A DNA stretch of 64,000 nt from Streptomyces hoynatensis (GTDB taxonomy: Bacteria; Actinomycetota; Actinomycetes; Streptomycetales; Streptomycetaceae). Shown piece by piece: positions 3,157 through 64,000 of the stretch; positions within the stretch are counted from its first letter, which is position 1; every line of letters begins with the position of its first letter. The stretch covers positions 1-64,000 of the forward strand of contig NZ_RBAL01000026.1 in NCBI RefSeq assembly GCF_003626535.1, read 5' to 3'. The position numbers and the translations under genes are program-made. A model generated the notes under the pieces. It searched no databases and was not told the origin of the DNA. It was given only the letters and a program-made list of their open reading frames with translations.

Positions 3157-8712
<5,556 letters not shown>

Positions 8713-8721
8713 TCTGCCACA

Positions 8722-8759
8722 CCCCGGCCGCCCGCGGGGAACTTGCGGGCGGCCGGGGG
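8722..8759 (+). terminator. Hairpin terminator after osaA
   Basis: Arms CCCCGGCCGCCCGC and GCGGGCGGCCGGGG pair perfectly around a GGGGAACTT-type loop, starting 9 nt after the osaA stop. There is no clear U tract, as is common in high-GC actinobacteria. It may end or attenuate the osaA transcript before osaB. Confidence 0.7.
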
Positions 8760-47369: not shown

Positions 47370-47933
47370 TCAGGAGCGGTGGGTGAGGCCGCGCAGGATG
47401 AGGGTGACCCAGCGGCGGCGGGCGGGCTCGGGGAGTTCGTCCCCGGGCAGGGTGCTCATCGTCAGGACGAGGTCGGCGGCGGTGACGTCGGGGTGCAGGG
47501 TGCCCTCGGCGTGGCCCGCCTCGACGATGCGGGCGAGCCCGGCCATGGCGCGGTCCTTCAGCTCGGGGGCCGCCTCGATGCCCAGGTTGCTCATGGCGGC
47601 CTTCACCGTGCGGTCCTCGCCGGCGGCCGTGCTGATCCGCTCGGTGAGGGTGGTCAGCTCCTCCAGGGCGCTGCCCCCGGCGTCGATGCGCGCCACGGCC
47701 TCGTCGAGCGCCGTGAAGATGCGGTCGGACAGCTCCGAGGTGATGGCGCCGATGAGGTCGGCCTTGGTCGGGAAGTGCCGGTAGAGGGTCCCGACGGCGA
47801 GGCCGGCCTCCTTGGCGATCTCGTCCATGCCCACCGAGCCGCCGCGCGCGGCGAAGAGGGTGCGCGCGGTGCGCAGGATCTTTTCCCGGTTGCGTGCGGC
47901 GTCGGCGCGCAGCCGGTGTGGTGCGGTAGTCAT
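47370..47933 (-). CDS. TetR-family transcriptional repressor
   Basis: The 187-residue protein starts at ATG 47933 behind GGAGG. The N-terminal helix-turn-helix (about 13-60) reads KILRTARTLFAARGGSVGMDEIAKEAGLAVGTLYRHFPTK, the TetR pattern. The C-terminal domain is all-helical and variable, for ligand binding and dimerisation. It is divergent from an MMPL exporter gene across 220 bp, the standard layout for a repressor that controls its neighbour and itself. The ligand is unknown. Confidence 0.9.
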   Translation of the reverse strand: MTTAPHRLRADAARNREKILRTARTLFAARGGSVGMDEIAKEAGLAVGTLYRHFPTKADLIGAITSELSDRIFTALDEAVARIDAGGSALEELTTLTERISTAAGEDRTVKAAMSNLGIEAAPELKDRAMAGLARIVEAGHAEGTLHPDVTAADLVLTMSTLPGDELPEPARRRWVTLILRGLTHRS

Positions 47934-47998
47934 CCCAACCTCCGCCTCGTCGTTCGCAGATGGCTCGCAACTCCGTGGTGCGTGTTGCCCGCCTAACA

Positions 47999-48012
47999 TG
48001 AATGATGGTTCA
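47999..48012. promoter_or_regulatory. Candidate TetR operator in the tetR-MMPL gap
   Basis: TGAA-N6-TTCA inverted repeat, roughly midway in the divergent gap and next to an A+T-rich CACTATAGG that could serve as a -10 element. The arms are short, so this is only a candidate. Confidence 0.35.
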
Positions 48013-48153
48013 CTATAGGTGTCTGTTCGTGGGGAACTCCCTTGCGCAGCAGGGACACCTGGCATGCCCATCAACGATACCGGGGCCCGGGTCCGGCCCG
48101 TTCCGGCCAACGCGAGCCGTCTCGCCCCGGCCTGACGCACCCTTGGAGACCCG

Positions 48154-50376
48154 ATGTCCACACTCGCCCGCTGGTGCCACCGCCGCCGGCTCCTGGTCCT
48201 CTTACTCTGGCTCGCCTGCCTCGTCGGCCTCGGCGTCGCAAGCGGCGTCGCGGGTGACGGCTACCGGACCGACTTCACCCTGCCGGACAGCGAGTCGAGC
48301 ACCGCGCTCGACCTGATGAGCGAGGCGACCCCGGACACGGCCGGCGCGACCGCCGGCGTCGTGTGGGAGGTCGACGAGGGCTCGGTCGCCGATGCCGCGC
48401 CGCGCGACCGCGTCGAGGCGGCGCTCGCGCAGATCGCGGCCCTGCCGGGCGTCGGCTCGGTCGTCGGCCCCTGGGACGAGGGCGGCGCGGGCCAGATCGG
48501 GGCGGGCGAACGCATCGCCTACGCCAGAATCGCCTTCACCGAGCAGAGTTACGAGCTGGACAAGGGCCTGGTCCAGAACGTCATCGACACCGCGCGGGCC
48601 GCCGCGACCGAGGGCCTCACCGTGGAACTCGGCGGGGAGGCGATCTCCGTCGCGGAGGAGCCCTCGGCCGCGGCCAGCGAGATCGTCGCCGTCGTCTTCG
48701 GCGCCGTCGTGCTGTTCGTCGCCTTCGGCTCGCTCGTCGGGATGGCCGTGCCCCTGGTCATCGCCGTGGCCGGGGTCGGCACCGCGATGCTCTCCATGGG
48801 GCTGCTCGCCCACGGCATCGGCATCGCCGACATCGCGCCCACCCTCGGCGCGCTGATCGGCCTCGGCGTCGGCATCGACTACGCCCTGTTCATCGTGACC
48901 AGGCACAGGTCGGGGCTCAAGGCCGGGCTCGGCCCCGAGGAGTCCGTGGTCACGGCGCTCGACACCGCGGGCCGCGCGGTGGTCTTCGCCGCGATCACCG
49001 TCATCCTGTCCGTCCTCGGCCTGTTCGCCCTCGGCATGGGCTTCCTCAACGGCGTCGCCATCGCCGCCGCGCTCACCGTCCTGTGCACCGTCCTCGCCTC
49101 GGTGACCCTGCTGCCCGCGCTGCTCGGCTTCATGGGGATGCGGGTGCTCAGGCCGCGGGAACGCCGCGAGCTCGCCGAGCAGGGGCCGGCCGCCGCGCCC
49201 GCCAGGCCCGGCCTGATCGCCCGCTGGGCCGCCGTCGTCGAGCGCCGCCCGCTGCTGCTCTCCGCCGTCGCCGTGCTGGTCATCGCGGTGCTGGCGGCGC
49301 CCACCCTCTCGCTGCGGCTGGGCAACTCGGACCAGGGCACCAACCCCGACTCCTTCACCAGCCGCAAGGCGTACGACATGCTCGCCGAGGGCTTCGGACC
49401 CGGCTTCAACGGGCCGCTGCTGCTGGTCGCCGAGGCCGGGGACGAGGCGGGGCGGCAGGCGCTCGGCGCGCTGACCCGGGACCTGCCGGGCGTGCCGGGC
49501 GTGGCCGAGGTGCACGCCTACCCGATGCAGGCCGGCTCGCCGATCGGCATCGTCCAGGTCACCCCCCGCACCTCGCCCCAGGCCGAGGAGACCTCGGAGC
49601 TCATCTCGCGGCTGCGCGAGGAGGTCATCCCCCAGGCCGCGGAGGGCACGGACCTGCACGTCTACGTCGGCGGCCAGACCGCGGTCAACGACGACTTCTC
49701 CGACACGATCGCCGACCGGATGTTCCTGTTCATCGGCGTGATCGTCGCCCTGGGCTGCCTGTTGCTGCTGCTGGCCTTTCGCAGCCTGGTGATCCCGCTG
49801 ACCGCGGCGGTGATGAACCTGATGGCCGCGCTGGCCGCGTTCGGCGTGGTGGTCGCCGCCTTCCAGTGGGGCTGGGTGTCCGACGCGGTGGGCATGGGCA
49901 CCGGCCCGGTGGAGCCCTTCCTTCCCGTGCTGATGCTGCCGGTGCTGTTCGGGCTCTCCATGGACTACCAGGTCTTCCTCGTCAGCCGCATGCACGAGGA
50001 ATGGGTGCACGGCAGGGACAACCGGCGGGCCGTGATCGTCGGGCAGTCGGAGACCGGCCGGGTCATCACGGCGGCCGCCACCATCATGATCGCCGTCTTC
50101 CTCGCCTTCATCCTGGGCGGCCAGCGGGTCATCTCGATGTTCGGCGCCGGGCTCGCGGTGGCCGTCGCGCTGGACGCCTTCATCCTGCGGACCGTCCTCG
50201 TGCCCGCCGCGATGCACGTCCTGGGCCGCTCCAACTGGTGGCTGCCCGGGTGGCTCGACCGCGTCCTGCCGCACCTGTCCGTGGAACGCCCCGGCTCCCC
50301 GGCCGCGCGCCCGCCCGCCGGGGCCACGGCCGCGCCGGCCGCGGACGCCTCCGCGCCGGTCGGGTCCGGGCACTGA
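48154..50376 (+). CDS. MMPL/RND-family exporter
   Basis: The 740-residue protein starts at ATG 48154 with GGAG 5 nt upstream. It shows two homologous halves with one helix, a periplasmic loop, then five helices each: about 10-30 and 175-330 in the first half, 365-385 and 525-690 in the second. Conserved MMPL motifs include GVGIDYALFIVTR and GLSMDYQVFLVSRMHEEW, each with an Asp-Tyr pair in the proton path. Members export lipids, antibiotics or hydrophobic compounds by proton motive force. The control is probably by the divergent TetR. It may serve the adjacent polyketide cluster or be a generic efflux pump. Confidence 0.92.
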   Translation: MSTLARWCHRRRLLVLLLWLACLVGLGVASGVAGDGYRTDFTLPDSESSTALDLMSEATPDTAGATAGVVWEVDEGSVADAAPRDRVEAALAQIAALPGVGSVVGPWDEGGAGQIGAGERIAYARIAFTEQSYELDKGLVQNVIDTARAAATEGLTVELGGEAISVAEEPSAAASEIVAVVFGAVVLFVAFGSLVGMAVPLVIAVAGVGTAMLSMGLLAHGIGIADIAPTLGALIGLGVGIDYALFIVTRHRSGLKAGLGPEESVVTALDTAGRAVVFAAITVILSVLGLFALGMGFLNGVAIAAALTVLCTVLASVTLLPALLGFMGMRVLRPRERRELAEQGPAAAPARPGLIARWAAVVERRPLLLSAVAVLVIAVLAAPTLSLRLGNSDQGTNPDSFTSRKAYDMLAEGFGPGFNGPLLLVAEAGDEAGRQALGALTRDLPGVPGVAEVHAYPMQAGSPIGIVQVTPRTSPQAEETSELISRLREEVIPQAAEGTDLHVYVGGQTAVNDDFSDTIADRMFLFIGVIVALGCLLLLLAFRSLVIPLTAAVMNLMAALAAFGVVVAAFQWGWVSDAVGMGTGPVEPFLPVLMLPVLFGLSMDYQVFLVSRMHEEWVHGRDNRRAVIVGQSETGRVITAAATIMIAVFLAFILGGQRVISMFGAGLAVAVALDAFILRTVLVPAAMHVLGRSNWWLPGWLDRVLPHLSVERPGSPAARPPAGATAAPAADASAPVGSGH

Positions 50377-50390
50377 CCGCGCCGGAGGGA

Positions 50391-50452
50391 TCGGGCCGGT
50401 CCCAGGGCGGTCGGCGTACCCTCCTTCGCCGGCCGCCCGCGGACCGGCCCGG
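50391..50452. terminator. Long nested hairpin between MMPL and SARP genes
   Basis: Outer arms CGGGCCGGTCC (50392-50402) and GGACCGGCCCG (50441-50451) are perfect. Inside them GGGCGG-t-CGGCG pairs with CGCCG-g-CCGCCC. The loop is TACCCTCCTT. The symmetric stem lies between two convergent genes and should stop both transcripts. Confidence 0.8.
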
Positions 50453-50464
50453 TCCCCGGCCGGC

Positions 50465-51229
50465 TCAGGCCCCCGACCTCGCGGCGACCGCCCCGCCGGC
50501 GAGGATCGCCTGGTGCGCGGCCCGCAGCCGGCGCCCCGGCTCGACTCCCGCCTCGTCGCGGAGAGTTCTGCGGGCCCTGCGGTACACCTCCAGGGCGTCC
50601 GCCTTCCGTTCCGACAGGTACAGCGCCAGCATCAGGTAGCGGTAGAGCGACTCCCGCAGCGGGTGCTCCGCGATCAGCGAGTACAGCTGGCCCACCGTCT
50701 CCCGGTGGCGGCCCAGCTGGAAGTACGCCTCCATCAGCAGCTCCGTGCACTCCACCCGCGACTCCGTGAGACTGCCCGCCCAGGCCCCGGCCAGGGGCCC
50801 GACCGGCAGGTCGTCCAGCGCGGGCCCGCGCCACAGCGCGAGCGCCGCCTCGCAGGCCGGCACCGCCGCGGTGGCCCGGCGTTCCCTGAGGGCCTGCCGC
50901 CCCTCGTCGAGGAGCCGCCGGAAGTCCACCGCGTCCCGCTCGCCCGAGGCCCCGTCGAGGAGGTAGCCCAGCGGCCTGGTCACGATCGGATTGGCCGCGC
51001 CCGGGCGGTCGAGGGCCTTCCGCAACTGCGAGACGTGCACGTAGAGAGAGGCCTCGGCGCGGCGCGGCGCGTGGTGCCGCCACACCTCGGTGATGAGCTG
51101 GTCGGTGGTCAGCACCTCGTCCGGGCGGGAGAGGAAAGCGGCCAGCAGGACCTGCACCTTGGGTGCGTTGATCAAAACTTCCCGGCCGCCGTCCAGTACC
51201 CGCAAATTCCCCAGTACTTCGTACCTCAT
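50465..51229 (-). CDS. SARP-family pathway activator
   Basis: The 254-residue protein starts at ATG 51229. An OmpR-type winged-helix DNA-binding domain (about 1-90) carries RYEVLGNLRVLDGG and VHVSQLRKAL. A bacterial transcriptional activator (BTAD) helical domain (about 95-245) carries VDFRRLLDEGRQAL and ALEVYRRARRTLRDEAGVEPGRRL. It has no NB-ARC or TPR extension, so it is a small SARP like ActII-ORF4 or RedD. Such proteins bind heptamer repeats one helical turn apart and activate antibiotic genes. It marks the left part of the polyketide cluster. Confidence 0.92.
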   Translation of the reverse strand: MRYEVLGNLRVLDGGREVLINAPKVQVLLAAFLSRPDEVLTTDQLITEVWRHHAPRRAEASLYVHVSQLRKALDRPGAANPIVTRPLGYLLDGASGERDAVDFRRLLDEGRQALRERRATAAVPACEAALALWRGPALDDLPVGPLAGAWAGSLTESRVECTELLMEAYFQLGRHRETVGQLYSLIAEHPLRESLYRYLMLALYLSERKADALEVYRRARRTLRDEAGVEPGRRLRAAHQAILAGGAVAARSGA

Positions 51230-51362
51230 GGCGCTCCCATTCCCCGTGTTCCCCCTGGTCGAATGTGCTCATGCCGTGCGGCGCATACAGCCTGCCATCC
51301 GCTTCCTTTACCTCCCAACCCCTAATCTGCACGCCCCCTGCCCGATGTAAATTGCAGAGTGA

Positions 51363-51380
51363 TTTAGACCCGCTTTAGAT
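51363..51380. promoter_or_regulatory. Candidate SARP binding site A
   Basis: Heptamers TTTAGAC (51363-51369) and TTTAGAT (51374-51380) repeat with an 11-bp period, with a poorer third copy GTCGAAT at 51385. It lies 134 bp upstream of the SARP start and may mediate autoregulation. Confidence 0.5.
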
Positions 51381-51450
51381 GCGCGTCGAATGATGTCTCC
51401 TGGAGCGATAACTCCGGGGGGAGCCGGCCTGAGTGGCTTACGGGGGGCCA

Positions 51451-51468
51451 CTTAGGTCGGCTTTAGAC
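51451..51468. promoter_or_regulatory. Candidate SARP binding site B
   Basis: Heptamers CTTAGGT (51451-51457) and TTTAGAC (51462-51468) again repeat with an 11-bp period, 65 bp upstream of the barrel-protein start codon. The second copy is identical to the first heptamer of site A. Confidence 0.5.
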
Positions 51469-51532
51469 GCCTCAATGACGCTTGCCGACGGCACTTGACA
51501 GGCCACGATGTCGACCAGCAGAGAGGTACCTG

Positions 51533-52078
51533 ATGAACGTGAAGGAAAGGCGGCGGGCGCGCGGCAAGCGGGCCACGGTTATCGCGGCCGCCGCCTCGGC
51601 CATTTCTCTCGCGGCGGTGCTCGCGCCGCAGACCGCGTCCGCGGCAGCGCCCGAGCACCACGGGAACGGAGGCCGGTCCATCGGCACGAACTGCGTGTCG
51701 CACGACGACATCTCGGAGTTCGTGACCGGTGGCACCGGCAGCGTCATCGAGCCGGGAAACCAGGGCACTTACCAGACGATTCTGTCGAACTCCGAGGGTG
51801 AGCAGATCGGCTCCGTCGACGCCGATGTCACGGTGCTGTGGCAGAACCCGGCGAACGACCACTGGTTCTACTACATCACCGAGACGATCACGCTGGAGGA
51901 CGGCACCCTGCGGACCGCGGGCATCATCGACCACACCGCCGTCAGCCAGGGGCAGACCCCCTACCTGCCGGCGTTCGGCGTCAGCGGTGTCTACCGCGGC
52001 AAGGTCGGCGGCCGGCAGTTCGAGATCGTGGAGGAGCCGGTCAACTGGGCCACGCACATCATCCTGTGCGGCAGGTGA
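51533..52078 (+). CDS. Secreted allene-oxide-cyclase-like beta-barrel protein
   Basis: The 181-residue protein starts at ATG 51533 with AGAGAGG upstream. A classical signal peptide has a basic N-region (KERRRARGKR), an Ala-rich core, and likely cleavage after Ala37 (TASA) or Ala39. The mature part of about 143 residues is beta-rich. It includes GTYQTILSNSEGEQIGSVDADVTV, TLEDGTLRTAGIID and a closing AFGVSGVYRGKVGGRQFEI, which resembles allene oxide cyclase/dirigent-like barrels. Only two cysteines remain, Cys54 and Cys179, and could form a disulfide. AbyU-type polyketide cyclases share this small barrel fold, but they are not secreted. Enzymatic function is inference. Confidence 0.65.
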   Translation: MNVKERRRARGKRATVIAAAASAISLAAVLAPQTASAAAPEHHGNGGRSIGTNCVSHDDISEFVTGGTGSVIEPGNQGTYQTILSNSEGEQIGSVDADVTVLWQNPANDHWFYYITETITLEDGTLRTAGIIDHTAVSQGQTPYLPAFGVSGVYRGKVGGRQFEIVEEPVNWATHIILCGR

Positions 52079-52197
52079 CCACTCCTCGTCCCGTGGCCCG
52101 GGGCCGGGAGCGCGGGGCAAAGGCGCCCCGCCCCCGGCCACCGGGCCGATCGGCGCCCGCCGCGCCGCGGGCAGCGGAAGGAGAGCAGGACACCACC

Positions 52198-52983
52198 ATG
52201 GCAACGACCCCACCCCAGCGCACCGGGTACCTGCCGGGCGACCCCGTCCCCGACGCGCCGCTGCGCCTGGTGTGCTTCCACCACGCGGGCGGCTCCGCCT
52301 CGGTCTTCGCCGGCTGGCAGCGCGCCCTCGGCCCCGGCGTCGCGGTCCTCCCGGTGCAGCTGCCTGGCCGCGAGCGCCGGTACGACGAGCCGCGGCCGCG
52401 GCATCTGCCCACCCTCCTCGCCGAGCTCGACGCCGAGCTCGACCCCTGGCTGCAGGCGCCGTGGACCTGCTACGGGCACAGCATGGGCGCCCTGCTGGCC
52501 TACTCCCTCGTCAGCCGCCGCGCCGCCGCCGGGCGGACCCTGCCGGAGCGGCTGATGGTCGGCGCGCTGCCCGCCCCGCACCGGCCGCGGGTGACGGTGG
52601 ACCACGAGGGGCTGAGCGAGGAGGAGTTCGCCCAGCGCCTCGTCGAACTCGGCGGGATCTCGCCCACCGTCCGGGCCTACCCCCGATGGCTGCGCGCCGC
52701 CGCCTCCCTCGCCCGCGACGACCTCGCCCTGTGCGCGGGCCCCCCGCTGCGCGCGTGGGAGCCGCTGCCCTGCCCGGTGGACGTGTTCACCGGACAGGAG
52801 GACCCGCTGATGCGGGAGGGCGACGCGGACGAGTGGGCCGAGCACACCAGGGCGACGTTCACCATTCAGCGCATCCCCGGGGGCCACTTCTTCCCCTGGG
52901 AGTCGCCCGACGTCTTCCTCGGCCGGCTCGCCGACTGCCTGCGCCTGGCCGCAGGCGGGATGCGCCGCGGCTCCCTGGCCTGA
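52198..52983 (+). CDS. Type II thioesterase
   Basis: The 261-residue alpha/beta hydrolase starts at ATG 52198. The nucleophile is Ser95 in CYGHSMGALLA, the acid is probably the aspartate in FTGQEDPL, and the histidine lies in PGGHFFPW. The opening LVCFHHAGGSASVFAGWQ and QLPGRERR are diagnostic for stand-alone thioesterases of polyketide and nonribosomal clusters. These remove wrong or decarboxylated acyl groups from ACPs and keep the line moving. It follows the barrel gene by 119 bp in the same direction. Confidence 0.93.
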   Translation: MATTPPQRTGYLPGDPVPDAPLRLVCFHHAGGSASVFAGWQRALGPGVAVLPVQLPGRERRYDEPRPRHLPTLLAELDAELDPWLQAPWTCYGHSMGALLAYSLVSRRAAAGRTLPERLMVGALPAPHRPRVTVDHEGLSEEEFAQRLVELGGISPTVRAYPRWLRAAASLARDDLALCAGPPLRAWEPLPCPVDVFTGQEDPLMREGDADEWAEHTRATFTIQRIPGGHFFPWESPDVFLGRLADCLRLAAGGMRRGSLA

Positions 52984-53002
52984 GGCCGCGCGGGCGCCCC
53001 GG

Positions 53003-54322
53003 CTACGCGGCGGCGCCCGCCTGGCAGGCGGCCCGCAGGTCGTAGAACCAGGACAGGTACGCGTCGTGGACCTGGCGGCCCATGATGCGCAGCTGCGAAT
53101 CGTCCGAGTTCTCCAGGTGCGTGAAGTTGGCGCTGCCGGTGTAGACCCGCGGCACGAGGTCGTCGTCGTAGAAGCCGTCGGTGAGCATCACCTTGGCGTG
53201 CGGGCGCACCTCGTGCCCCGCGGCCACGTCGTGGGTGCAGGGCGTCAGCTGGATCTCCTTGCCGTTGGACGCGGTCCTGCGCAGGGTGCTCAGCACGTCG
53301 CTCTCGATGCCCTGCGCGGCGTACACGACGTCGATCCAGCAGTTCTCGCCGCGCAGCCGCAGCAACTCGTCGGCGATCGCCTGGCGGTTTCCGGTGAAGG
53401 AGGAGATCACCAGCCTGATGTCGGTCTGGTGGGTGCTGCCGCCGTCCTGGTAGGAGCACTCGATGCCGCGCAGCACGTTCACCACGGGGTCGCCCGTGCC
53501 GAGGGCCCGCGGGTAGAACAGGGCCTTGTAGGTGCTGCCCGAGGGCGTGGCCCAGAAGTAGTCCGGGTCCACCGCCGACCTGCGGCCGGCCTGCAGGTCG
53601 CCGAAGTGGGTCTGGTACGCCTGGTGGATCGCGGCGTCGGCGAGGGTGTAGGCGTCGTTGTACGAGGTGAAGACGTACCAGTCGGTGAGGTTGGACGAGC
53701 TCTGCCACACCACGTTCTGCGTGCTGGTGCCGTCCGCCCAGGCGACCCTGGAGAAGAGCGCGAACTTCTCGTGCGAGTAGTTCCGCGCGAGGCAGCCGCG
53801 GGCCGAGGACGCGTAGTCGCCGCAGCCGACCACCCAGGACGCGGCCGACTCGTCGTGCCCGAGCGCGGCGTCCAGCAGGTCCCGCATCGGCTGATTCTTC
53901 GCCGAGGTGTTCAGCACCAGCTGCACGTCGACGCCCCGGTCGTGGGCGGCGATCAGGCGCTCGGCGACCTGCTGCGGCGCGCCGCTGGCGCCCGCGACCC
54001 ACTCGAACATCGCCAGGCGGATGCGCTCGCCCGAGGGAACCGCGTCGATCAGGCCGATGAGCTGGTCGAAGACGGCGCGCTGCGCGGCCGTGGCCGCCCC
54101 GCTCGCCGGCCCCGCCGCCGGGTCGTTGAACACCGGCCCGTCCAGCACCACCTGCGCGCCGGCCGCGGTCAGCCGCGTCTGCCCGGCGGCCGCCTGCGCC
54201 GCCCCGGGGGCCGGGTCCGGCTCCGCCGCCCGGCTCGCCGCCTGTGCGGGCCCCGCCGTCAGCAGCCAGGCGAGCAGGCAGCACACCAGTGCCGCCGGCG
54301 GCAGCACGCGCCGTCCACGCAT
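53003..54322 (-). CDS. Secreted phospholipase D-like protein
   Basis: Start ATG 54322 (about 439 residues) is preferred for its AAGGAAGG signal. The Sec signal peptide ends near GPAQA-AS. Two PLD half-sites are visible. The first, HEKFALFS, has serine where the HxKxxxxD motif needs aspartate, though SSSNLT follows. The second, HAKVMLTD with GSANFT, is complete. PLD enzymes need both halves, so activity may be altered, or the protein may bind without cleaving. It is convergent with the thioesterase gene (19-bp gap). Its link to polyketide synthesis is unclear. Confidence 0.82.
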   Translation of the reverse strand: MRGRRVLPPAALVCCLLAWLLTAGPAQAASRAAEPDPAPGAAQAAAGQTRLTAAGAQVVLDGPVFNDPAAGPASGAATAAQRAVFDQLIGLIDAVPSGERIRLAMFEWVAGASGAPQQVAERLIAAHDRGVDVQLVLNTSAKNQPMRDLLDAALGHDESAASWVVGCGDYASSARGCLARNYSHEKFALFSRVAWADGTSTQNVVWQSSSNLTDWYVFTSYNDAYTLADAAIHQAYQTHFGDLQAGRRSAVDPDYFWATPSGSTYKALFYPRALGTGDPVVNVLRGIECSYQDGGSTHQTDIRLVISSFTGNRQAIADELLRLRGENCWIDVVYAAQGIESDVLSTLRRTASNGKEIQLTPCTHDVAAGHEVRPHAKVMLTDGFYDDDLVPRVYTGSANFTHLENSDDSQLRIMGRQVHDAYLSWFYDLRAACQAGAAA

Positions 54323-54349
54323 GGGCACCTTCCTTCCCTCGCTTCGCAT

Positions 54350-54363
54350 GTGAGCATGCTCAC
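54350..54363. promoter_or_regulatory. 14-bp perfect palindrome upstream of the PLD-like gene
   Basis: GTGAGCATGCTCAC is fully self-complementary and centred about 34 bp ahead of the start codon at 54322. That is a typical operator position. The regulator is unknown. Confidence 0.5.
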
Positions 54364-54423
54364 CTCAAGCAAGGGTGAACCCCCGGCGGACGCCCAGGGA
54401 ACCCCCCGGCGCCCGCCGGGAGT

Positions 54424-55749
54424 TCAGGCGCGCTGCGCCGCCGCCGCGTTGCGGACCGGGGCACCCGTGCTCGCCAGCCGCTCCAGCAGCGCCACCGCCC
54501 GGCCCGGCGCCTCCTCGGGCGGCGCCTGGGCGCGGATCTCCTCGGCCCTGGCCCGGTAGGCGGGATCGCCCGCCACCCGCAGCACCGCGGACCTGACGGC
54601 GGCGGCCCGCGGCCGGTCCGAACGCAGGTCGATCCCGCAGCCCGCGTACTCCACCCGGGCGGCCACGTCGCCCTTGTCGTCGACCTTGCCCGCCACCACC
54701 AGCGGCAGCCCGGCGGCGATGCTCGTCTGCACGCTGCCGAACCCGCCGTTGGTGACGAACACCGAGCACAGCGGCAGCAGCCGCCCGTAGGGCAGGTAAC
54801 GCGCCACCCGGGTGTTGGCCGGCACCTCGCCGAGCGCCGCCGGGTCGCCGCCGCCCATGACGGCGACGACGAACACGTCCTCGCCCGCCAGCCCGGCGAT
54901 CGCCGGCTTCAGCAGCATCTCCGGATCGTTCTCCACGGTGCCCTGCGACACCGCGACCACCGGCCGGCCCGCCCGGCGCGCGGCCTCCAGCTCAGGCCAC
55001 CACGCGGGCGGCTCCCAGGAGTCGCCGGAGGGCAGCGGCATCGAGCCGACGAAGTGCACCGTGGGCGGCAGGTCGGTGCGCGGGTACTCGGCCCCCGGCG
55101 CGCAGAACTCGAGGAACAGCTCGGGCCTGATGACGGAGGCGTCGAAGATGGTGCCCTTGACCGGCGGCAGCCCCACCTTCGCCCGCTGCGCCGCGTACTC
55201 GCGGGTGGTGCCGCCGAAGACCGCCCGCCTGATCACGGCGTTCAGCAGCCGGTTCCGCAGCCGCCCGGCCCAGCCGGTGCGCAGCCGCAGCGAAAGACCC
55301 GGCGGCGGCACCTGCGGACTCAGGTAGGGCAGCAGCGTCACCCCGCACAGCGCCAGCGGCAGGGGCGCGAGCGCCTGCACGAAGTTGGCGCCGACGAAGC
55401 CGAGGTCGGCCACCAGCGCGTCGGCTGGCTCCTCCGCCAGCAGGCCCAGGATGTTGCGGGCCTGGTCGGCGGCGGGCGCGACCAGCGTCTTCTCCATGTC
55501 GAACTGGAGCTTGCGCACCCGGGACAGCTTCGCCCGCTCGGGGAACTTGGCGTCCGGGTCGCGCCAGTCGAAGTCGTGCTGCTCGGGGATCGGGAAGAAA
55601 CGCGCACCGGCCTCGGTGACCTTCTCCTCGAAGTGCCGCCCGGTGACGAAGCGGACATCGTGCCCGGCGTCCACCAGGGGCCGCACCAGGGAAAGCACCG
55701 GGTTGACGTGGCCCTGCACGGGCACGGCGGCGAGCATGAATCGGGACAT
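54424..55749 (-). CDS. GT1-family glycosyltransferase (macrolide type)
   Basis: The 441-residue protein starts at ATG 55749, with GGAGA upstream. The N-terminal acceptor domain begins MSRFMLAAVPVQGHVNPVLSL. The donor domain has VVAVSQGTVEND and the nucleotide-sugar motif region FVTNGGFGSVQTSIAAGLPLVVAGKVDDKGDVAARVEYAGCGIDL. The usual HGG is NGG here, a change seen in some members. The role would be to attach a sugar to the polyketide, or to inactivate a macrolide in self-protection. No deoxysugar genes lie in the window. The gene is 35 bp downstream of the exporter gene. Confidence 0.88.
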   Translation of the reverse strand: MSRFMLAAVPVQGHVNPVLSLVRPLVDAGHDVRFVTGRHFEEKVTEAGARFFPIPEQHDFDWRDPDAKFPERAKLSRVRKLQFDMEKTLVAPAADQARNILGLLAEEPADALVADLGFVGANFVQALAPLPLALCGVTLLPYLSPQVPPPGLSLRLRTGWAGRLRNRLLNAVIRRAVFGGTTREYAAQRAKVGLPPVKGTIFDASVIRPELFLEFCAPGAEYPRTDLPPTVHFVGSMPLPSGDSWEPPAWWPELEAARRAGRPVVAVSQGTVENDPEMLLKPAIAGLAGEDVFVVAVMGGGDPAALGEVPANTRVARYLPYGRLLPLCSVFVTNGGFGSVQTSIAAGLPLVVAGKVDDKGDVAARVEYAGCGIDLRSDRPRAAAVRSAVLRVAGDPAYRARAEEIRAQAPPEEAPGRAVALLERLASTGAPVRNAAAAQRA

Positions 55750-55784
55750 GCCGAATCTCCTTAGAGGCGTGGGTGGGCGTGCGC

Positions 55785-57329
55785 TCAGGCGCCGCCGCCG
55801 GGCGGCGTCGCCGCCTGCAGGTCGGCGGCCCTGACGCGGGTGGCGGCCAGGACGACGACCAGGGCGCAGGCCGTGAACAGCGCCCCTACCGTGAAGGCCG
55901 AGTGGAGGCCCTCGACCAGCAGGTGACCCGCCTGCTCCCCGGGCCCCGCGTCCGCCGGGAGGTCCCCGGCCGCGCCGCGGCTGGCCGAGCCGAACACGGT
56001 GACCATCACGGACAGGCCGAGGGCGGAGCCGCCCTGCTGGGAGGTGTCGAGCAGCCCCGAGGCCGCCCCCGACTCCTCCGGCCGCACCCCGAGGAACGCC
56101 ACCAGCGCCACCGGCACGTACACCGCGCCGATGCCGAGCCCGAGCAGCAGCCCGGGCAGCAGGATGCCGGTGACGTAGCCGGAGTCCTCGGCCAGCCGCG
56201 CCAGCCACAGCATCCCGCAGGTCGTCAGGACCGCGCCGCCCGCCATGAACGGCCGGGCGCCGAGCCGCGGCATCAGCCCACTCGACACCTGCGCCGCCAC
56301 CACGATCGCGACCGTCACCGGCAGGAACGAGATGCCGGTGCGCAGGGCGCTGTAGCCGAGGACCTCCTGCACGTACTGGGTGAGGAAGAAGAACATCCCG
56401 CCCATGGCGGCCGCGGTCAGCAGCATCAGCAGGTAGGCGCCGGCCCGGTTCCGGTCGCGGAACAGCCGCAGCGGCGTGATCGGCTGCCTGGCGCGGCTCT
56501 CGATCAGCGCGAACGAGGCCAGCAGCACGCCGCCCACCGCGAAGGACCCCAGCGCCAGGCCGTCGCTCCAGCCCTCGTCCCCCGTCCTGATCAGCCCGTA
56601 CACGACGGCGAGCAGCCCCCCGGTGGAGGCGGCGGCCCCGGCCACGTCGAAGCGGCCCGGCTGCGGCTCCGACTCCTTGATCAGCCGCGGCACGGCGATC
56701 AGCAGCAGCGCCGCGACGGGCAGGTTGACCAGCAGCACCCAGCGCCAGGACGCCCCGGAGACCAGCACGCCGCCCAGGATCAGGCCGAGGGCGGAGCCGG
56801 AGACGGAGGCCGCGGCGTAGCCGGCGAACGCCTGGTTGCGGTCCCTGCCCTCGCGGAAGTTGGTCGTGATCAGGGACAGCGCCGTCGGGGAGGCGATCGC
56901 GGCACCCATCCCCTGCAGGGCCCGCGACACCAGCAGCCACGCTTCGTTCCCGGCCAGGCCGCCGCTGAGCGAGGCCAGGCCGAACAGGGCGATGCCGGCC
57001 ATCAGCACCCGGCGGCGGCCCAGGATGTCGCCCGCCCTGCCGCCGAGCAGCAGCAGGCCGCCGAAGGCGAGGATGTAGGCGTTCACCACCCAGGACAGGC
57101 TGGTGGGGGAGAAGCCGAGGTGCTCGTGGATGTCGGGCAGCGCAACGGTCACGATCGTCCCGTCCAGCACCAGCATCAGCTGGCAGACGGCGATGATCAG
57201 CAGCCTGGGGCCGGTGCGGGAATCGCTTCCCGCGGCCCCGGCGCCCGCCGGGGCCGGCCCGCCGGACTCGGGGGAGCCGGGGGCCGCGGCGGACATCTCG
57301 GTTCTGGACACGTCCACTCCGTCCGTCAC
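55785..57329 (-). CDS. DHA2-type MFS exporter
   Basis: GTG 57329 overlaps the stop of the upstream gene (GTGA), suggesting coupling. GTG 57314 with GGAG upstream is an alternative. The protein of about 514 residues has 14 membrane helices. It shows the antiporter motifs LVLDGTIVTVALPDI, GRAGDILGRRRVLMAG and SGLLDTSQQGGSALGLSV of EmrB/QacA-type drug exporters. It is the likely exporter or self-resistance pump for the cluster product. Confidence 0.9.
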   Translation of the reverse strand: MTDGVDVSRTEMSAAAPGSPESGGPAPAGAGAAGSDSRTGPRLLIIAVCQLMLVLDGTIVTVALPDIHEHLGFSPTSLSWVVNAYILAFGGLLLLGGRAGDILGRRRVLMAGIALFGLASLSGGLAGNEAWLLVSRALQGMGAAIASPTALSLITTNFREGRDRNQAFAGYAAASVSGSALGLILGGVLVSGASWRWVLLVNLPVAALLLIAVPRLIKESEPQPGRFDVAGAAASTGGLLAVVYGLIRTGDEGWSDGLALGSFAVGGVLLASFALIESRARQPITPLRLFRDRNRAGAYLLMLLTAAAMGGMFFFLTQYVQEVLGYSALRTGISFLPVTVAIVVAAQVSSGLMPRLGARPFMAGGAVLTTCGMLWLARLAEDSGYVTGILLPGLLLGLGIGAVYVPVALVAFLGVRPEESGAASGLLDTSQQGGSALGLSVMVTVFGSASRGAAGDLPADAGPGEQAGHLLVEGLHSAFTVGALFTACALVVVLAATRVRAADLQAATPPGGGA

Positions 57330-58198
57330 AGCCCGGCCACGGCCGGAATGATCTTGTCGCCGACCAGTTCCAGGGACTTCAGCGCCCACACCTCGTTGAC
57401 CGAGCCGAACACCGTGGTCACCCCGTGCTCCGCGAGACGGCCGAGGAAGTCCACGATCTGCTGCGGCGACATCCCCTTGTCGCCGACGTTGAACGGCACG
57501 AAGCAGGTCTTCTCGATCTCGTCGTAGTCCCGGCCGACCTCCTCGCAGTGCCGCCGGAGCACCTCCAGCTTCCGGCCCATGCCGGGGGAGGGAAACAGGT
57601 TGCAGGCCTGGGCGTACCTGGCGACCAGCCGCAGCGTCTTCTTCTCGCCCGAACCGCCGATCATGATCGGCGGGTGGGGCGCCGTCAGCGGCCGCGGCGA
57701 GTCAAGCGTCCGCTCCAGGTGATAGTGCTTGCCGTGGTAGGGGCCGTCCTCCTCGCTCCACATCCGGAGCACGATCTGCACCGCCTCCTCCAGATGCTCG
57801 AACCGCTCGGCCAGCGGCGGGAAGGGAATGCCGAGCCCCCGGGCCTCCTCCTCCATCCAGGCCGCGCCGATGCCGAGCCAGGCCCGGCCGCCCGAGAGGA
57901 CGTCGAGCGTGGACACCGTCTTCGCCAGCACCCCCGGGTACCGGTAGACGGCGCCCGAGACCAGCGTCAGCAGCTTGACCCGCTCGGTGTGCGCGGCGAT
58001 GAACCCCAGCGCCGTGTACGCCTCGAGCATCTCCCGCTCCACGGGACCGATGTGCGGGATCTGGAAGAAGTGGTCCATCAGCGTGATGTGGGAGAAGCCG
58101 GCCTCCTCGGCCGTCCTGGAGATCTCCGCCAGGCCCTTCCCCATCCGGGCCGGTCCCTCCGGCCACGTGAAATCGGCTATCTGCAGGCCGATCTGCAT
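57326..58198 (-). CDS. Luciferase-like (LLM) F420-dependent oxidoreductase
   Basis: The 290-residue TIM-barrel protein starts at ATG 58198 behind AAAGGA. Segments such as HITLMDHFFQIPHIG, TERVKLLTLVSGAVYRYPGVLAKTVSTLDVLSGGRAWLGIGAAW and HPPIMIGGSGEKKTLRLVARYA are typical of the F420-dependent LLM group. It could reduce or oxidise a polyketide intermediate with F420, but flavin-dependent monooxygenation is also possible. It follows the PKS gene by 47 bp and overlaps the exporter start, so it is in the PKS operon. Confidence 0.85.
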   Translation of the reverse strand: MQIGLQIADFTWPEGPARMGKGLAEISRTAEEAGFSHITLMDHFFQIPHIGPVEREMLEAYTALGFIAAHTERVKLLTLVSGAVYRYPGVLAKTVSTLDVLSGGRAWLGIGAAWMEEEARGLGIPFPPLAERFEHLEEAVQIVLRMWSEEDGPYHGKHYHLERTLDSPRPLTAPHPPIMIGGSGEKKTLRLVARYAQACNLFPSPGMGRKLEVLRRHCEEVGRDYDEIEKTCFVPFNVGDKGMSPQQIVDFLGRLAEHGVTTVFGSVNEVWALKSLELVGDKIIPAVAGL

Positions 58199-58245
58199 GG
58201 TGGGTGTCCTTTCGTGTCGTGCGTCCTGTGGTGGGTGCGCCCCGG

Positions 58246-61200
58246 TCAGAGGTCGGCGGTCGCGGCGGCCGAGACCAGCTCCGCGTGCAGGTAGGAGGCC
58301 AGCGAGGCGGGCGCCGGATGGTCGAAGATCACGGCGGCCGACAGTTCCAGGCCGGTCGATTCGGTGAGCTTGGCCGTCAGCTCCATCGTGGTGAGCGAGG
58401 TGAACCCCAGCTCGATGAAGTCCTTGTCCTCGTCGAGGGCTTCGGCGGAGGCGTGCCCGAGCGCGGCGGCCGCACTGCTGAACACCAGCCGCCGCACGAG
58501 CCGTTCGCTCTCCTCGGGCGTCGCGGCCACGACCTGCCGCAGCAGCCCCTCGGGGCCCCCGGGCACGGCCTCGGCACCGGCCGGCCCCGCGGCGGCGCGG
58601 GCCGCGACCTCGGGCAGCTCGTCGAACAGGCGGGTCGGCGGGTGCTCAGCGCCACCCGGCGCGAACGCGGCCCAGTCGACGTCCGCGAGGTGCACCGCCG
58701 TCTCCCCGCGGAGCAGCGCCTGCCGCAGCGCGGCGAGCACGCCGGCGAGCGGCATCAACCGCAGCCCGGCGGGCACCCCCTCCGCCCAGGACGCGCCTGA
58801 CCCGCCCGCGCCCTCGGCGCCGGCCGCCAACCACGGGCCCAGGGTGACGGCGGTGCCGGGACGGCCCTGCGCGGCACGCCGGGCGGCCAGCGCCCGGCCC
58901 CACGCGGCCGTGCCCCGCCCGTCGGCCGGCCCGCCGAGCGCCGGCTCCGCCTCGTCGAAGACCACGAAGGCCGTCAGCGCCGCCTCCTCGGCCTCCGTCA
59001 GCGCCGCCTGGACGGCCGCGGCCGAGGCGGCGCCCGCGGTGGCGAACACGGCCGTCAGCGGAAGGCCCTCCGGCGCCTGGTCCAGCACCCCGCGCAGCGC
59101 CCCGGCCTCCGTGGGATCGCAGGCCACGACGGTGGCGGAGCCGCCCAGGGACCGCACCTCGGCCTCCAGCATCCCCACCTCGGCGAGCGCCCGCCGCGAG
59201 CCCACCGTCAGCAGCAGGTGCCGCACGCCGTTGCGCACCAGCCACCGGGCCAGCGCGGCGCCCCAGGCGCCCGCCCCCTCCACCACGAGGGCCGTACCCG
59301 AGGGCCGCCACTGGCCGGCCCCGCCACCGCCCCCGGCGCGAACCAGGCGCCTGACGAGAACGCCCGAGGCGCGGACCGCCCACTCGCGCTCCCCCTCCGC
59401 GTCCCCGCCCGCCCCGCCGAGCAGCCCGGCGAGGGACTGCCAGGCGCGGCCGTCGGGGACGGGCGGCAGGTCGACCAGGTGCGCCCAGCCGCGGGGGCGT
59501 TCCGCCCCGGCCGCGCCGCCCAGGTCCCACAGCCTGGCCCGCTCGGGCACGGCGGGCCGCTCCGTGCGGTCCACCGCCACCGCGCCACGGGTCGCCAGCC
59601 ACACCTCCGCCTTGCCGAGCCCGGCCTCCGGCAGGGCCTCGCGCAGCGCATCGGCCGCCGTGGCCCCGCACAGGGACAGCACCCCGGACACGGGCCCTTC
59701 CGCGGCGACCGCCTCCCGCAGCGCCGCCGCCAACTCGGCGGGCCGCACGCCGCCTTCGCGGCCCTCGTCCACCGGGAGCACGACCGGCCTGGCGCCGCGC
59801 TCGGCGAGCGCCGCCACCGCACCGGCCGCCGCCTCGCCCCCGGCCCCCGCCTCGCCCTCGGCCGCCGCCGGGACGAGCACCAGCCAGACCCCGTCCGGCA
59901 CCCCCGCCGGGGCCGGCACCTGCCGCCACACCGGCCGGTACCGCCAGGCGCGGGAACGGCGCCGGGCCGCAAGCGCGGGCAGCACGGCGTCCAGGGACGG
60001 TTCACGGTCGAGGTCCAGCGCCCTGACCAGCAACTCCGGGTCCTCCCGTTCCACCGCCTCCCAGAACTCGGCCTCCTCGGGCGCCGCCGCCTCCGGTCCC
60101 CCCGGCGCCGGCGCGTCGTGGAGCCAGTACGCCTCGCGCCGGAAGGGATACGTGGGCAGCGGTACCGGAACCGCGGGCCGGTGCAGCAGTCGCGCCCAGT
60201 CCGGGCGGGTGCCCTGGACGTGCAGGCGGGCCAGGGCCGCCGGATAGGCCACCCCCTCCGCCTGGTCGCGGCGCAGCACCGGAAACGCCCCCGACTCCGG
60301 CCCGCCCGCCGCCGCCAGCGTCTCCCGCGTCAGGTGCGTGAGCGAGGCATCGGGCCCCAACTCCAGGTAGGTGGTGGTGTCGTGGGTGTGGAGGGTGGTG
60401 ATGCCCTGGGCGTAGTGGACGGTGTTTCGGATGTGGTGGGTCCAGTAGGCGGGGTCGGTGAGTTGTTCGGTGGTGGCGAGGTTGCCGGTGGTGTTGGAGA
60501 TGACCGGGATCGTCGGTGGGTGGTAGGTGAGGGTGGTGGCGGTGGCGTGGAACTGGTCGAGGATGGGGTCCATGTGGGGGGAGTGGAAGGCGTGGGAGAC
60601 GGTGAGTTCGCGGGTGCGGATGCCGTGGTCGGCGAAGTGGCGGGCGATGGCGCGTGTGGGTTCGGTGTCTCCGGCGATGACGGTGGTGGTGGGGGAGTTG
60701 ATCGCGGCGAGGGTGACGGTGCCGTGGGTCTCGGCGAGGTGGGGGGTGATCTCCTCGTGGGGGGTGTTGATGGCGATCATGGTTCCGCCGGGGGTGGCGG
60801 CCTGCATGAGGCGGGCGCGGGTGGTGATCAGGGTCGCGGCGTCGTTGAGGGTGAGGACTCCTGCCACGTGCGCTGCGGTGAGTTCGCCGAGTGAGTGCCC
60901 GGTGAGGTAGTCGGGGGTGATGCCGTGGTGGGTCAGGAGCCGGTAGAGGGCGACTTCCAGGGCGAACAACGCGGGCTGGGTGTAGCGGGTTTGGTTGAGC
61001 AGCCCGGCCTCTTCCGTTCCTTCCTCGGCGAACATGAGGGATTTCAGTGGCCGGTCGAGGTGGGGGTCGAGGGCGGCGCAGGTCTCGTCGAGGGCGGTGG
61101 CGAAGACGGGATAGGTGTCGTAGAGGTCGCGGCCCATGCCGGGGCGCTGGCTGCCCTGGCCCGAGAAGACGAACGCCACCTTGCCCGGCAGCGTCGTACC

Positions 61201-62898
61201 CCGCACCACCTGCGGCAGCGCCTCACCGTCCTCGATGGCCCGCAGTCCGGCCAGCAGGTCCCCCGGGTCCGTGGCCACGACCGCCGCGCGGTGCTCGAAG
61301 GCCCCCCGGGTGGTGGCCAGGGCCCAGCCCACGGCCATCGGGTCCGCCTCGGGGCCGGTCAGCAGGCGCGCACGGAGGTTTCGCGCCTGGGCGCGCAGGC
61401 CCTCCGGCGTGCGCCCGGACAGCACCCACGGCACGGCCGCCCGCGCCCCCGCGGAGGGCAGGCCCGCGGCGGCCTCCGCTTCCGCGGGCTCCTCCTCGGG
61501 GGCCTGTTCGATGATGAGGTGGGCGTTGGTGCCGGAGACGCCGAAGGAGGAGACGGCGGCGCGGCGGGGGTGGCCGGTGTCGGGCCAGGTCCTGGCCTCC
61601 GTCAGCAGTTCGACGGCTCCCGCGGTCCAGTCGACGTGGGGGGTGGGCTCGTCGATGTGGAGGGTTTTGGGCAGCACCCCGTTGCGCAGGGCCATGACCA
61701 TTTTGATGACGCCGCCGACGCCTGCGGCGGCCTGGGTGTGGCCGATGTTGGATTTGAGGGAGCCCAGCCACAGCGGCCGGTCTTCCGGCCGGTCCTGGCC
61801 GTACGTGGCGAGCAGCGCCTGCGCCTCGATGGGGTCGCCCAGCGTGGTCGCCGTCCCGTGGCCCTCCACCGCGTCCACCTGGTCCGCCGTCAGCCCCGCG
61901 TCCTCCAGCGCGGCGAGGATGACGCGTTGCTGGGAAGGGCCGTTGGGGGCGGTGAGGCCGTTGCTTGCGCCGTCCTGGTTCACCGCGGAGCCGCGCAGCA
62001 CCGCGAGCACGGGGTGGCCGTTCCTGCGGGCGTCCGACAGCCGTTCCAGCAGCACCAGGCCCACGCCCTCGCCCCAGCCGGTGCCGTCGGCCCCGCCCGC
62101 GAACGAGCGGCAAAGACCGTCGGGGGACAGCCCCCGCTGCCTGCTGAACTCCGTGAAGACCCCCGGCGTGGACAGCACCGTCACCCCGCCGGCCAGGGCC
62201 AGGGAGCACTCGCCCGCGCGCAGCGCCCGCGACGCGAGGTGCAGCGCCACCAGGGAGGAGGAGCAGGCGGTGTCCACGGTGACGGCCGGGCCCTCGAAGC
62301 CGAAGGTGTACGAGACGCGGCCCGTCGCCACGCTGCCCGCGCTGCCGTTGCCGAGGAAGCCCTCCAGATCCTCGGGGACGCTGTGCAGGCGGCTGCCGTA
62401 GTCGCCGTACATCACCCCGGTGAACACGCCGGTGCGGCTGCCCCGCAGGCTCGCCGGGTCGATGCCCGCCCGCTCCAGGGTCTCCCAGGCGGTCTCAAGC
62501 AGCAGCCGCTGCTGCGGGTCCATCGCCAGGGCCTCGCGCGGGCTGATGCCGAAGAACCCCGGGTCGAACTCGGCCGCGTCGTACAGGAACGAGCCCTGCC
62601 GCGCGTACATCTTCCCCGGCTTGCCCGGCTCAGGGTCGTACAGCTCGTCGAGGTCCCAGCCGCGGTCAGCGGGGAACTCCCCGGCGGTGGCCACCTCGCC
62701 CACGACCAGTTCCCACAGGTCCTCGGCGGAGCGCACGCCACCCGGGTAGCGGCAGCCGAGCGACACGATCGCGATCGGCTCCCGCAGCTCCGCCTCCACC
62801 TCCCGCAGGCGCTGCCGCGTGCGGTGCAGGTCGGCCGTGACCCACTTCAGGTAGTCGACGAGTTTCTGCTCGCTGGGCTGGTCGGTTTCGTTCGTCAT
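58246..62898 (-). CDS. Type I PKS, single module KS-AT-KR(inactive)-ACP
   Basis: The 1550-residue protein starts at ATG 62898, with GGGAGGGA upstream. An N-terminal coiled-coil docking segment (about 8-40) is followed by the KS (about 41-465). Its active Cys212 lies in VDTACSSS and its histidines in EGHGTA (around 347) and NIGHT (around 388). The AT (about 570-870) has Ser669 in GHSLGE and HAFH at 769-772, which predicts malonyl-CoA. A KR-sized region (about 960-1420) has lost the NADPH motif (VEGAGAWG replaces TGGTGxLG) and the Ser/Tyr/Asn triad, so the keto group stays. An ACP has Ser1501 in LGFTSL. The protein ends soon after, with no docking helix and no thioesterase. Confidence 0.93.
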
Positions 62899-62943
62899 GG
62901 TCGGTGTTCCCTCCCTCTGTCGGCGCGGCGTGGCTCGAAGCGG

Positions 62944-64000
62944 TCAGTCCAGGGCACGGCCGAGTTCCTGATCGATGAAGTCGAAGATTTCGGAGGCGCC
63001 GGCGGCTTCGAGCGCGTCGGCCACCGAGGCCCCGCGGCTCTCCTCCGCGGCGCCGTTCCACTGCGCGAGGAGGGCACCCAGGCGCGTGGCCACCTTGGCG
63101 CGCAGCGCGCCGTCGGGGGCCGCGGCCGTCAGGCTCCGCTCCAGCCGGTCGAGTTCGTCGAGGACCGAACGCGCCCGCGCCCCGTCCCCCGCGCCCTCGC
63201 GCGGCGCCAGCCCCTCGCCCAGGTAGCCGGCCAGCGCGGCGGGCGTCGGGTAGTCGAAGACGAGGGTGGCCGGCAGCCGCAGGCCGGTGGCGGCGCCCAG
63301 GCGGTTGCGCAGTTCCACGGCCGTCAGCGAGTCGAAGCCGAGGTCCTTGAAGGCCCGCTCCGGCTCCACCTCTCCCGGCGAGCCGTAGCTGAGCACGAGG
63401 GCCACCTGGGTGCGCACCAGCTCGGTGAGCAGCTCCGCCCGCTCCGCCTCGGCGAGCGTGGCGAGCCGCTGCCTGAGGGCGCCCGCGCCCGGGGCGCCCG
63501 CCCCGGCGGAGGCGGCGCGCCTGGCCCGCCCGCGCACCAGGCCCCGCAGGATCGCCGGGACCTCGTCGAGGCCCCGCAGCGCCGAGGCGTCGATCCGCGT
63601 CGTCACCAGGAACGCGGCCCCGTGGGCGCGGCCCGCGTCGTACAGCGCCAGGCCCTCCTCGGCCGAGAGCGCCCCGATGCCGGTGCGGGCCATCCGCGAC
63701 ACGTCCACCTCGCCGAGGTGTCCGGTCATGCCGCTGGCCTGGGCCCAGTAGCCCCAGGCGAGGGAGGTGGCGGGCAGTCCGCGGGCGCGGCGGTGGGCGG
63801 CGAGGGCGTCGAGGTAGACGTTGGCGGCGGCGTAGTTGGCCTGTCCCGCGTTGCCGAGGGTGCCGGCGGCGGAGGAGAAGAGGACGAACTCGGCCAGGTT
63901 CAGGTCGCGGGTGAGTTCGTGCAGGTGCCAGGCCGCGTCCGCCTTCGGCCGCAGCACCGCGTCCAGCCGCCCCCGGGTCTGCGCCTCCAGGACGCCGTCG
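62944..64000 (-). CDS. Type I PKS, C-terminal part (KR-ACP-docking), cut by window end
   Basis: The frame runs in from beyond base 64000. The visible C-terminus of about 351 residues has the second half of a KR with intact catalytic residues in [21 protein letters not shown]. There is no Trp ahead of the Tyr, which points to a B-type alcohol. An ACP follows with [17 protein letters not shown]-terminal docking domain ([11 protein letters not shown], then [11 protein letters not shown]) suits the N-terminal coiled coil of the next protein. The 45-bp gap to the following PKS and this docking match imply direct transfer from this module to that one. Confidence 0.92.

Follow-up and report, generated by a model that had tools for sequence, protein, structure and literature searches.

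In the available text of PMC7489565, the last module of the tetromadurin polyketide synthase (PKS), module 14, has no thioesterase (TE) domain and an apparently inactive ketoreductase (KR), which fits a C3 ketone. The tetromadurin cluster also encodes a predicted type II TE and homologues of all five glycerate-operon proteins, and its FabH-like protein Mad16 releases the chain. The spirotetronate cyclases, according to the available text of PMC10946715, are eight-stranded barrels of low mutual identity. Here we describe a PKS terminus of this kind in Streptomyces hoynatensis, encoded at 58246-62898 of a 64,000-nucleotide stretch (the window; contig C18:1-64000) of a 7.26 Mb draft genome in 52 contigs with a stated completeness of 99.72%. 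Like tetromadurin module 14 its last module has an inactive KR and no TE, and a type II TE gene lies nearby, but neither the five glycerate-operon homologues nor a counterpart of Mad16 was found. The module very probably belongs to the tetronate type, which the first-pass annotation had not recognised. A dead KR and an absent TE are ordinary for that class, while their presence without the operon is unusual; what is new here is the absent operon and a signature in the terminal acyl carrier protein (ACP), the terminus itself being of a known type.

The terminal PKS gene

The terminal subunit is a single intact open reading frame (ORF) of 1550 aa that fills exactly the interval given by the first-pass annotation, which had named no strand; the gene lies on the minus strand. 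The features of this end of the assembly line are as follows (KS, ketosynthase; AT, acyltransferase).

58246-62898, minus: terminal PKS subunit of one module (docking-KS-AT-PKS_DE-dead KR-ACP), 1550 aa, without TE and without C-terminal docking sequence
62791-62874, minus: N-terminal docking helix, residues 9-36 (PF08990)
61654-62781, minus: KS domain, residues 40-415 (Pfam), active site VDTACSSSL
60205-61173, minus: AT domain, residues 576-898 (Pfam), motifs GHSLGE and HAFH
58774-59298, minus: dead KR core, residues ~1201-1375, with VEGAGAWG, a 19-column deletion, catalytic Lys/Ser/Tyr/Asn lost and the predicted fold retained
58288-58470, minus: terminal ACP, residues 1477-1537 (Pfam), GFTSLT, attachment Ser at residue 1501
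62944-64000, minus: 3' part of the preceding PKS gene (two modules; extends to C18:74964), with C-terminal docking-type sequence

The subunit has what an extension module needs, namely a KS with TACSSSL, an AT with GHSxGE and an ACP with its attachment Ser; Pfam also places a PKS_DE domain at residues 942-986. The HAFH motif of the AT marks it as malonyl type. A Pfam search of the whole 1550-aa protein gave no TE. The subunit stops 13 residues beyond the ACP model and, counted from the ACP motif, only 53 residues remain; the cluster's four other complete PKS C-termini have 121-149 and all bear the docking-type sequence that is missing here. Since the next gene starts 47 bp after the stop codon, there is no room for a TE beyond the ACP, and a downstream remnant of a TE or docking segment is ruled out. 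The claim that the protein ends soon after its ACP with neither TE nor docking helix is therefore borne out. Neither a further PKS gene accepting this ACP nor an integrated TE in a downstream module was seen: the protein lacks a C-terminal docking segment for a handover, and no KS match lies downstream of the gene on its own contig. With a malonyl-type AT, a nonfunctional KR and no TE, the product should be a beta-ketoacyl-ACP that is released by something else, as had been proposed.

An inactive ketoreductase

In an alignment with the other KRs available from the cluster, eight in number, the terminal KR shows a deletion of 19 columns, which takes out the region of the LRPK lysine, a motif present in all eight of the others; FSS is changed to FDE, and in GQxNYxxxN the Tyr is replaced by Gly and the Asn by Ala. 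The Pfam match (residues 1201-1303) covers only positions 1-104 of the 180 of the model. The glycine motif TGGTGxLG reads VEGAGAWG, in which the GxGxxG spacing is intact, so that the NADPH motif, reported as absent by the first-pass annotation, is degraded but still present, while its statements that the catalytic triad is gone and that the bulk of the domain is kept both stand: the AlphaFold2 model retains a KR fold (predicted local distance difference test score, pLDDT, 90.1), and Foldseek aligns it with DEBS KR1 and the Lsd14 KR at template-modelling (TM) scores of 0.83-0.86, although the 47-row input alignment consisted mostly of ordinary KRs and may bias the model toward this fold. With its catalytic Lys, Ser, Tyr and Asn lost in a KR fold, the domain is read as redox-inactive (C-type). 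It does not fit the C2 type, an epimerising KR that needs an alpha-substituent on which to act together with the remaining catalytic Tyr and Ser; here the AT is of malonyl type (HAFH), and Tyr and Ser are both lost.

Assembly line and cluster borders

Contig C18 continues beyond the window to 89398 and carries further PKS genes on the minus strand. Its final 127 bases recur, reverse-complemented, as the opening 127 of contig C36, and an AT of C18 contains the 127 bases that open contig C13. C36 and C18 begin at the same point of a dehydratase (DH) domain, while the end of C36 falls in a DH and that of C13 in an AT. Most simply, C13 (KSQ loading and the start of module 1) is followed by C36 (the rest of module 1, modules 2 and 3 and the start of module 4) and this by C18 (the rest of module 4 and modules 5-9). 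The terminal gene ends a KSQ-primed line with probably nine extension modules. All PKS frames read on the three contigs are open, with recognisable KS, AT and ACP motifs. The same genome has more large modular PKS genes on contigs C51, C35, C38 and C2, likewise broken at repeated domains. The macrolide lines of S. noursei and Streptantibioticus were considered as orthologues and rejected, with matches of ~40% identity and ends that read as TE.

The domain content predicts a propionate starter and the extenders mm, mm, m, mm, m, mm, mm, mm, m (mm, methylmalonyl; m, malonyl). The chain predicted from it would carry a C10-C15 triene, saturated C6-C9, a C4(Me)=C5 double bond and the C3 ketone. In module 2 a KR is seen without DH or enoylreductase (ER), so that a free hydroxyl is predicted. 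Such a hydroxyl, at C17, might capture the beta-ketothioester internally, or the thioester might be hydrolysed without any enzyme. A spontaneous release of this sort as the whole explanation is, however, quite improbable: no oxygen is predicted at C5, which makes a simple alpha-pyrone impossible, and a large lactone formed without a TE would, as general knowledge has it, be unusual.

On C18 the cluster is flanked by hflX, and on C13 by a putative lipoprotein gene. In three of the five related genomes checked (G165, G031 and G154; genomes are cited by our own handles) hflX is directly followed by the lipoprotein gene; in the other two, G105 and G047, the C13 flank genes fall outside the 20 kb read. 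Since the flank genes adjoin in G165, G031 and G154, C13 and C18 border one inserted cluster. The whole PKS cluster (window 47370-64000 plus C13:1-7702) is an insertion between these two genes.

Search for a release operon

An FkbH profile search of the assembled genome found none, whereas the same search was positive in 8/8 comparison genomes, on the contig of the barrel gene in four and on other contigs in four. FkbH also serves other pathways, and these eight positives show that the search works, not that there are eight tetronate clusters. The KSIII, FkbH, ACP, acyltransferase and hydrolase of G038 were then used as glycerate-operon queries against 13 comparison regions. All five were matched in eight of them (G020, G038 itself, G045, G097, G105, G116, G164 and G312), two of the five in the stretch from G184, and none in G036, G048, G371 and G181. 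On C18, C13 and C36 the count was 0/5. Release of a tetronate by an FkbH operon of its own is accordingly unsupported for this cluster, FkbH not being found in a genome search that was positive in the comparison genomes.

The cluster might still be an ordinary tetronate or spirotetronate cluster whose glycerate operon lies in an assembly gap or has diverged too far to be detected. Its terminal anatomy, beta-barrel cyclase homologue and accessory genes all fit this, and the genome is a draft in 52 contigs. It is nevertheless improbable, as both cluster flanks reach core genes that are adjacent in 3/5 relatives, the remaining breaks lie inside AT and DH stretches of PKS genes and are, by inference, too small for a multi-gene operon, and the high completeness of the assembly has to be set beside an FkbH search that worked in every comparison genome.

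Alternatively, the chain may be passed to a partner encoded elsewhere, either an enzyme of the nonribosomal peptide synthetase (NRPS) type giving a tetramate, as reportedly happens in pyrroindomycin biosynthesis, or a stand-alone KS joining two chains. The genome does hold other KSIII and KS genes, and barrels of the PyrI4 type serve tetramate pathways as well, PyrI4 being one of the matches of the barrel protein. Yet there is little likelihood of such a handover: the genes of the bounded cluster include none recognisable as such a partner (no genome-wide search for NRPS genes was made), and the KSIII-bearing stretches of this genome resemble tetronate KSIII weakly or not at all. Three of these five stretches match at 27-33% and two have no match, compared with 56-66% in the comparison clusters. 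The first-pass annotation had suggested looking for a separate TE or a KSIII-like release enzyme. The former was found (52198-52983, plus, PF00975); the latter was not, as C18, C13 and C36 gave no match to KSIII or FkbH.

A signature in the terminal ACP

The terminal ACP reads GFTS instead of GFDS, with Thr at residue 1500 replacing the Asp before the attachment Ser. In eight of eight TE-less termini, from five lineages, Ser or Thr stands in place of this Asp before the phosphopantetheine Ser; this is a pattern noticed here and no accepted criterion of the tetronate type. The loci concerned are the window gene 58246-62898 (residue 1500) and L095, L096, L097, L100, L103, L129 and L135. Among 126 ACPs counted, the Asp was absent in 7/7 with a tail of at most 75 residues, plus the ACP of G045 with its tail of 76, and in 4/118 of the others. 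The classes were set by tail length and not by domain search, G045, just over the cut, being moved by hand to the TE-less class. With one count per lineage (n = 5) Fisher's test gives p = 5.8e-7, where G105, G047, G184 and G050 are treated as one lineage by the author's judgement. The counting pattern allowed any residue at the tested position; ACPs failing the rest of the pattern were left out, and 35-residue contexts that recurred unchanged entered the count a single time. The signature was first noticed on six cases; G164 and G045 are later, new cases, and both fit. The abyssomicin-like contigs of G097, G020 and G116 run off before the terminal ACP and G312 has no PKS frame, so that these four are neutral. 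No paper on the signature was found, though none of the searches targeted the motif as such.

The comparison termini closely resemble the one described here. The absence of a TE was judged from Pfam searches in G105 and G038 and from the length of the tail in G047, G184, G164, G045 and G050; G047, G184, G164 and G045 have one-module terminal ORFs, while of G050 only a C-terminal piece is present. The terminal genes of G105 and G047 encode 1572 and 1576 aa in the order KS-AT-dead KR-ACP, and G184 has the same end; that of G164 encodes 1634 aa, with a KR lacking the catalytic pattern by eye, and that of G038 encodes 1108 aa and no KR. KR status was inspected in G105, G047 and G164 (dead) and G038 (absent). 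Thus the tetronate-type clusters of G105/G047/G184, G164, G045 and G038 share with the present one a TE-less terminal module whose KR is dead or lost where inspected, an ACP with GF[ST]S or GLSS and a beta-barrel homologue nearby; a flavin adenine dinucleotide (FAD) oxygenase adjoins the terminal module in those clusters. They differ in that G105, G164, G045 and G038 have the five-gene glycerate operon within the stretch read, and in G184 and G047 an FkbH gene shares the contig.

The beta-barrel protein and neighbouring genes

The genes between the terminal PKS gene and hflX, all within the window, are the following.

57326-58198, minus: luciferase-like F420-dependent oxidoreductase (TIGR03560)
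55785-57329, minus: MFS exporter resembling EmrB/LmrA types, below the NCBIfam cut-offs of those types
54424-55737, minus: macrolide-type glycosyltransferase with an EryCIII-like C-terminal domain
53003-54307, minus: PLD-like protein, signal-like N-terminus by eye
52198-52983, plus: discrete type II TE, candidate release enzyme (PF00975; GHSMG; Asp and His by eye)
51533-52078, plus: AOC_like eight-stranded beta-barrel protein, homologue of the [4+2] cyclases AbyU/AbmU/PyrI4, with a signal-peptide-like N-terminus
50465-51157, minus: SARP-type regulator (BTAD)
48154-50376, plus: MMPL-type exporter, within the inserted segment
47370-47933, minus: TetR regulator, the first gene after hflX

The barrel protein matches AbmU, AbyU, PyrI4 and PloI4 by sequence, the last weakly (E ~0.01). 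Its model (pLDDT 78.9, but below 50 over residues 4-49) has eight strands, and Foldseek retrieves LucK, AbmU, AbyU and PyrI4 at E ~2e-11, with TMt of 0.84-0.87 to AbyU and LucK. With the [4+2] cyclases AbyU, AbmU, PyrI4, AbnU, PloI4 and Cyc15 and with the barrel protein LucK it shares the eight-stranded barrel at 20-27% identity in structure alignments, and eight columns are invariant when it is aligned with 15 homologues. On sequence and model, it is taken as an AOC-like eight-stranded barrel homologous to AbyU/PyrI4; by analogy with these it would catalyse an intramolecular [4+2] cycloaddition. It contrasts with the seven named proteins in its signal-like N-terminus, and its cluster allows no prediction of a tetronate or tetramate dienophile. 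PyrI4-type barrels also act in tetramate pathways. Matches at E up to 1e-5 occur in 18/392 sampled genomes of the genus, this genome included. Secretion-signal-like N-termini with paired Cys are found in this protein and in G105-type homologues (loci L080, L083, L084 and L085 are concerned); the AbyU-like homologues have neither, and the G038 type has the Cys and no such signal by eye. At locus L104 of G181 (7623-9765) an AOC-barrel gene has neighbours that, by eye, are P450-like and SnoaL-like, together with a PKS whose C-terminus looks TE-like; such barrels may thus also serve TE-ended lines.

The discrete TE is a stand-alone PF00975 protein with GHSxG, Asp and His, as expected of a type II TE, and among solved structures it comes closest to RifR and other TEs of the stand-alone kind. 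C13 has another SARP-like gene, which shares 49% identity with the SARP of the window. C13:7292-7702, inside the inserted segment, encodes PanD (aspartate decarboxylase), of which the genome gave no second copy, and the same search did not find PanD in G165, G031 and G154. Its position beside the cluster could suggest a supply of beta-alanine or a self-resistance copy; as it is the only PanD found, no such inference is drawn. A PyrE3-like FAD decalin cyclase is a feature of class II spirotetronate pathways. The G038 oxygenase used as query matched no cluster gene on C18, C13 or C36, its single match on C18 (25872-26930, 32% identical) being ~20 kb outside the cluster. This match lies in a divergent FAD oxygenase gene (25383-26933, minus), which was rejected as the absent decalin cyclase on account of its location and weak similarity.

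A further alternative is that the cluster is a decaying relic that has lost its release operon and makes only stalled or edited chains. The terminal ACP retains its signature while the associated operon was not found, and no orthologous cluster was seen: the luciferase-like gene was matched in 4/392 genomes including its own (E up to 1e-100), the other three matches being 56-58% identical. Decay on this scale has a small chance of being the explanation, given that the PKS frames are open, that KS, AT and ACP motifs are recognisable, that eight KRs keep LRPK, and that the regulator, exporter and glycosyltransferase frames are intact.

Proposed pathway and its weight

The reading that we tentatively favour is that the line ends in a beta-ketoacyl-ACP, that the C3 ketone of this chain activates an enone for a decalin-forming cycloaddition, and that the chain is released without a tetronate, most likely by the discrete TE or spontaneously. 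The terminal module would load malonyl and leave the C3 ketone, giving a 3-oxo-4-methyl-4-enoyl-ACP chain. By polarising C4=C5, the unreduced ketone would make this bond the dienophile for the C10-C13 diene of the triene built upstream, and the barrel protein 51533-52078 would close the decalin by intramolecular [4+2] cycloaddition. The proposed decalin, in a predicted aglycone of C26-27, would resemble the lower half of class II spirotetronates. Release would yield no glycerate-derived tetronate; the discrete TE 52198-52983 or spontaneous hydrolysis may instead free a beta-keto acid, which could decarboxylate to a methyl ketone before glycosylation and export. The release step in this form, through the discrete TE or water, is somewhat less likely than not.

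Several observations weigh against this pathway. The module order C13-C36-C18 depends on contig-end overlaps, the sequence not being continuous, and the genome is a draft of 52 contigs. The discrete TE is RifR-like, and similar TEs stand beside the operon in several tetronate-bearing comparison regions; because they accompany the operon elsewhere, the presence of this TE does not point to release. The barrel protein has a secretion-signal-like N-terminus and two Cys, which would be unusual in an intracellular cyclase. It was the barrel gene that led to the comparison clusters, so that its association with a TE-less terminus is in part a product of selection, and the barrel genes of G371, G181, G036 and G048 have no TE-less terminus in the stretches read. 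In a tree of 60 of the 91 KS sequences the terminal KS groups with the other KSs of its own cluster (support 99), apart from the other terminal KSs, while an ACP tree of 81 rows, with the residue before the attachment Ser masked, places the terminal ACPs to one side of a branch with support of 63. Common descent of the terminal modules is therefore not supported, the KS tree opposing it and the support in the ACP tree being too weak; on the latter tree the loss of the Asp needs four changes.

A wider interpretation, which we regard as rather unlikely, would make the cluster a tetronate-independent offshoot of the spirotetronates, in which the product freed from a terminus with a dead KR, no TE and an Asp-less ACP is a decalin beta-keto acid or methyl ketone glycoside and the barrel acts on an acyclic enone instead of a tetronate; the change of Asp to Ser/Thr would then generally mark termini from which the chain passes to a release enzyme acting in trans. 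If this were true, the TE-less beta-keto terminus would be separable from the tetronate-making glycerate operon, to which it is joined in the clusters examined, and the locus would offer a natural test of whether beta-barrel [4+2] cyclases require a tetronate or tetramate dienophile. Should the signature prove valid in named clusters, non-TE release would be recognisable from sequence alone in genome mining, and the motif would give a hint to how the release enzyme recognises the last ACP.

Comparison with known systems

The literature on furanone, akaeolide, lucensimycin and decalin compounds gave no defensible match by which the product could be named. Among described clusters, that of abyssomicin is also similar in its gene content. 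In the available text of PMC3625739, AbyB3 is a one-module terminal gene without TE, and the cluster includes SARP and TetR regulators, the EmrB/QacA-type exporter AbyD, the luciferase-like monooxygenase AbyE, the type II TE AbyT and a YD-repeat/beta-barrel protein, all with counterparts in the present cluster. The two differ in that AbyB3 is listed there as KS-AT-ACP with no KR, and in that the tetronate genes abyA1-A5 and the cytochrome P450s reported there were not found among the cluster genes here; the present cluster, in turn, includes a glycosyltransferase and an MMPL exporter.

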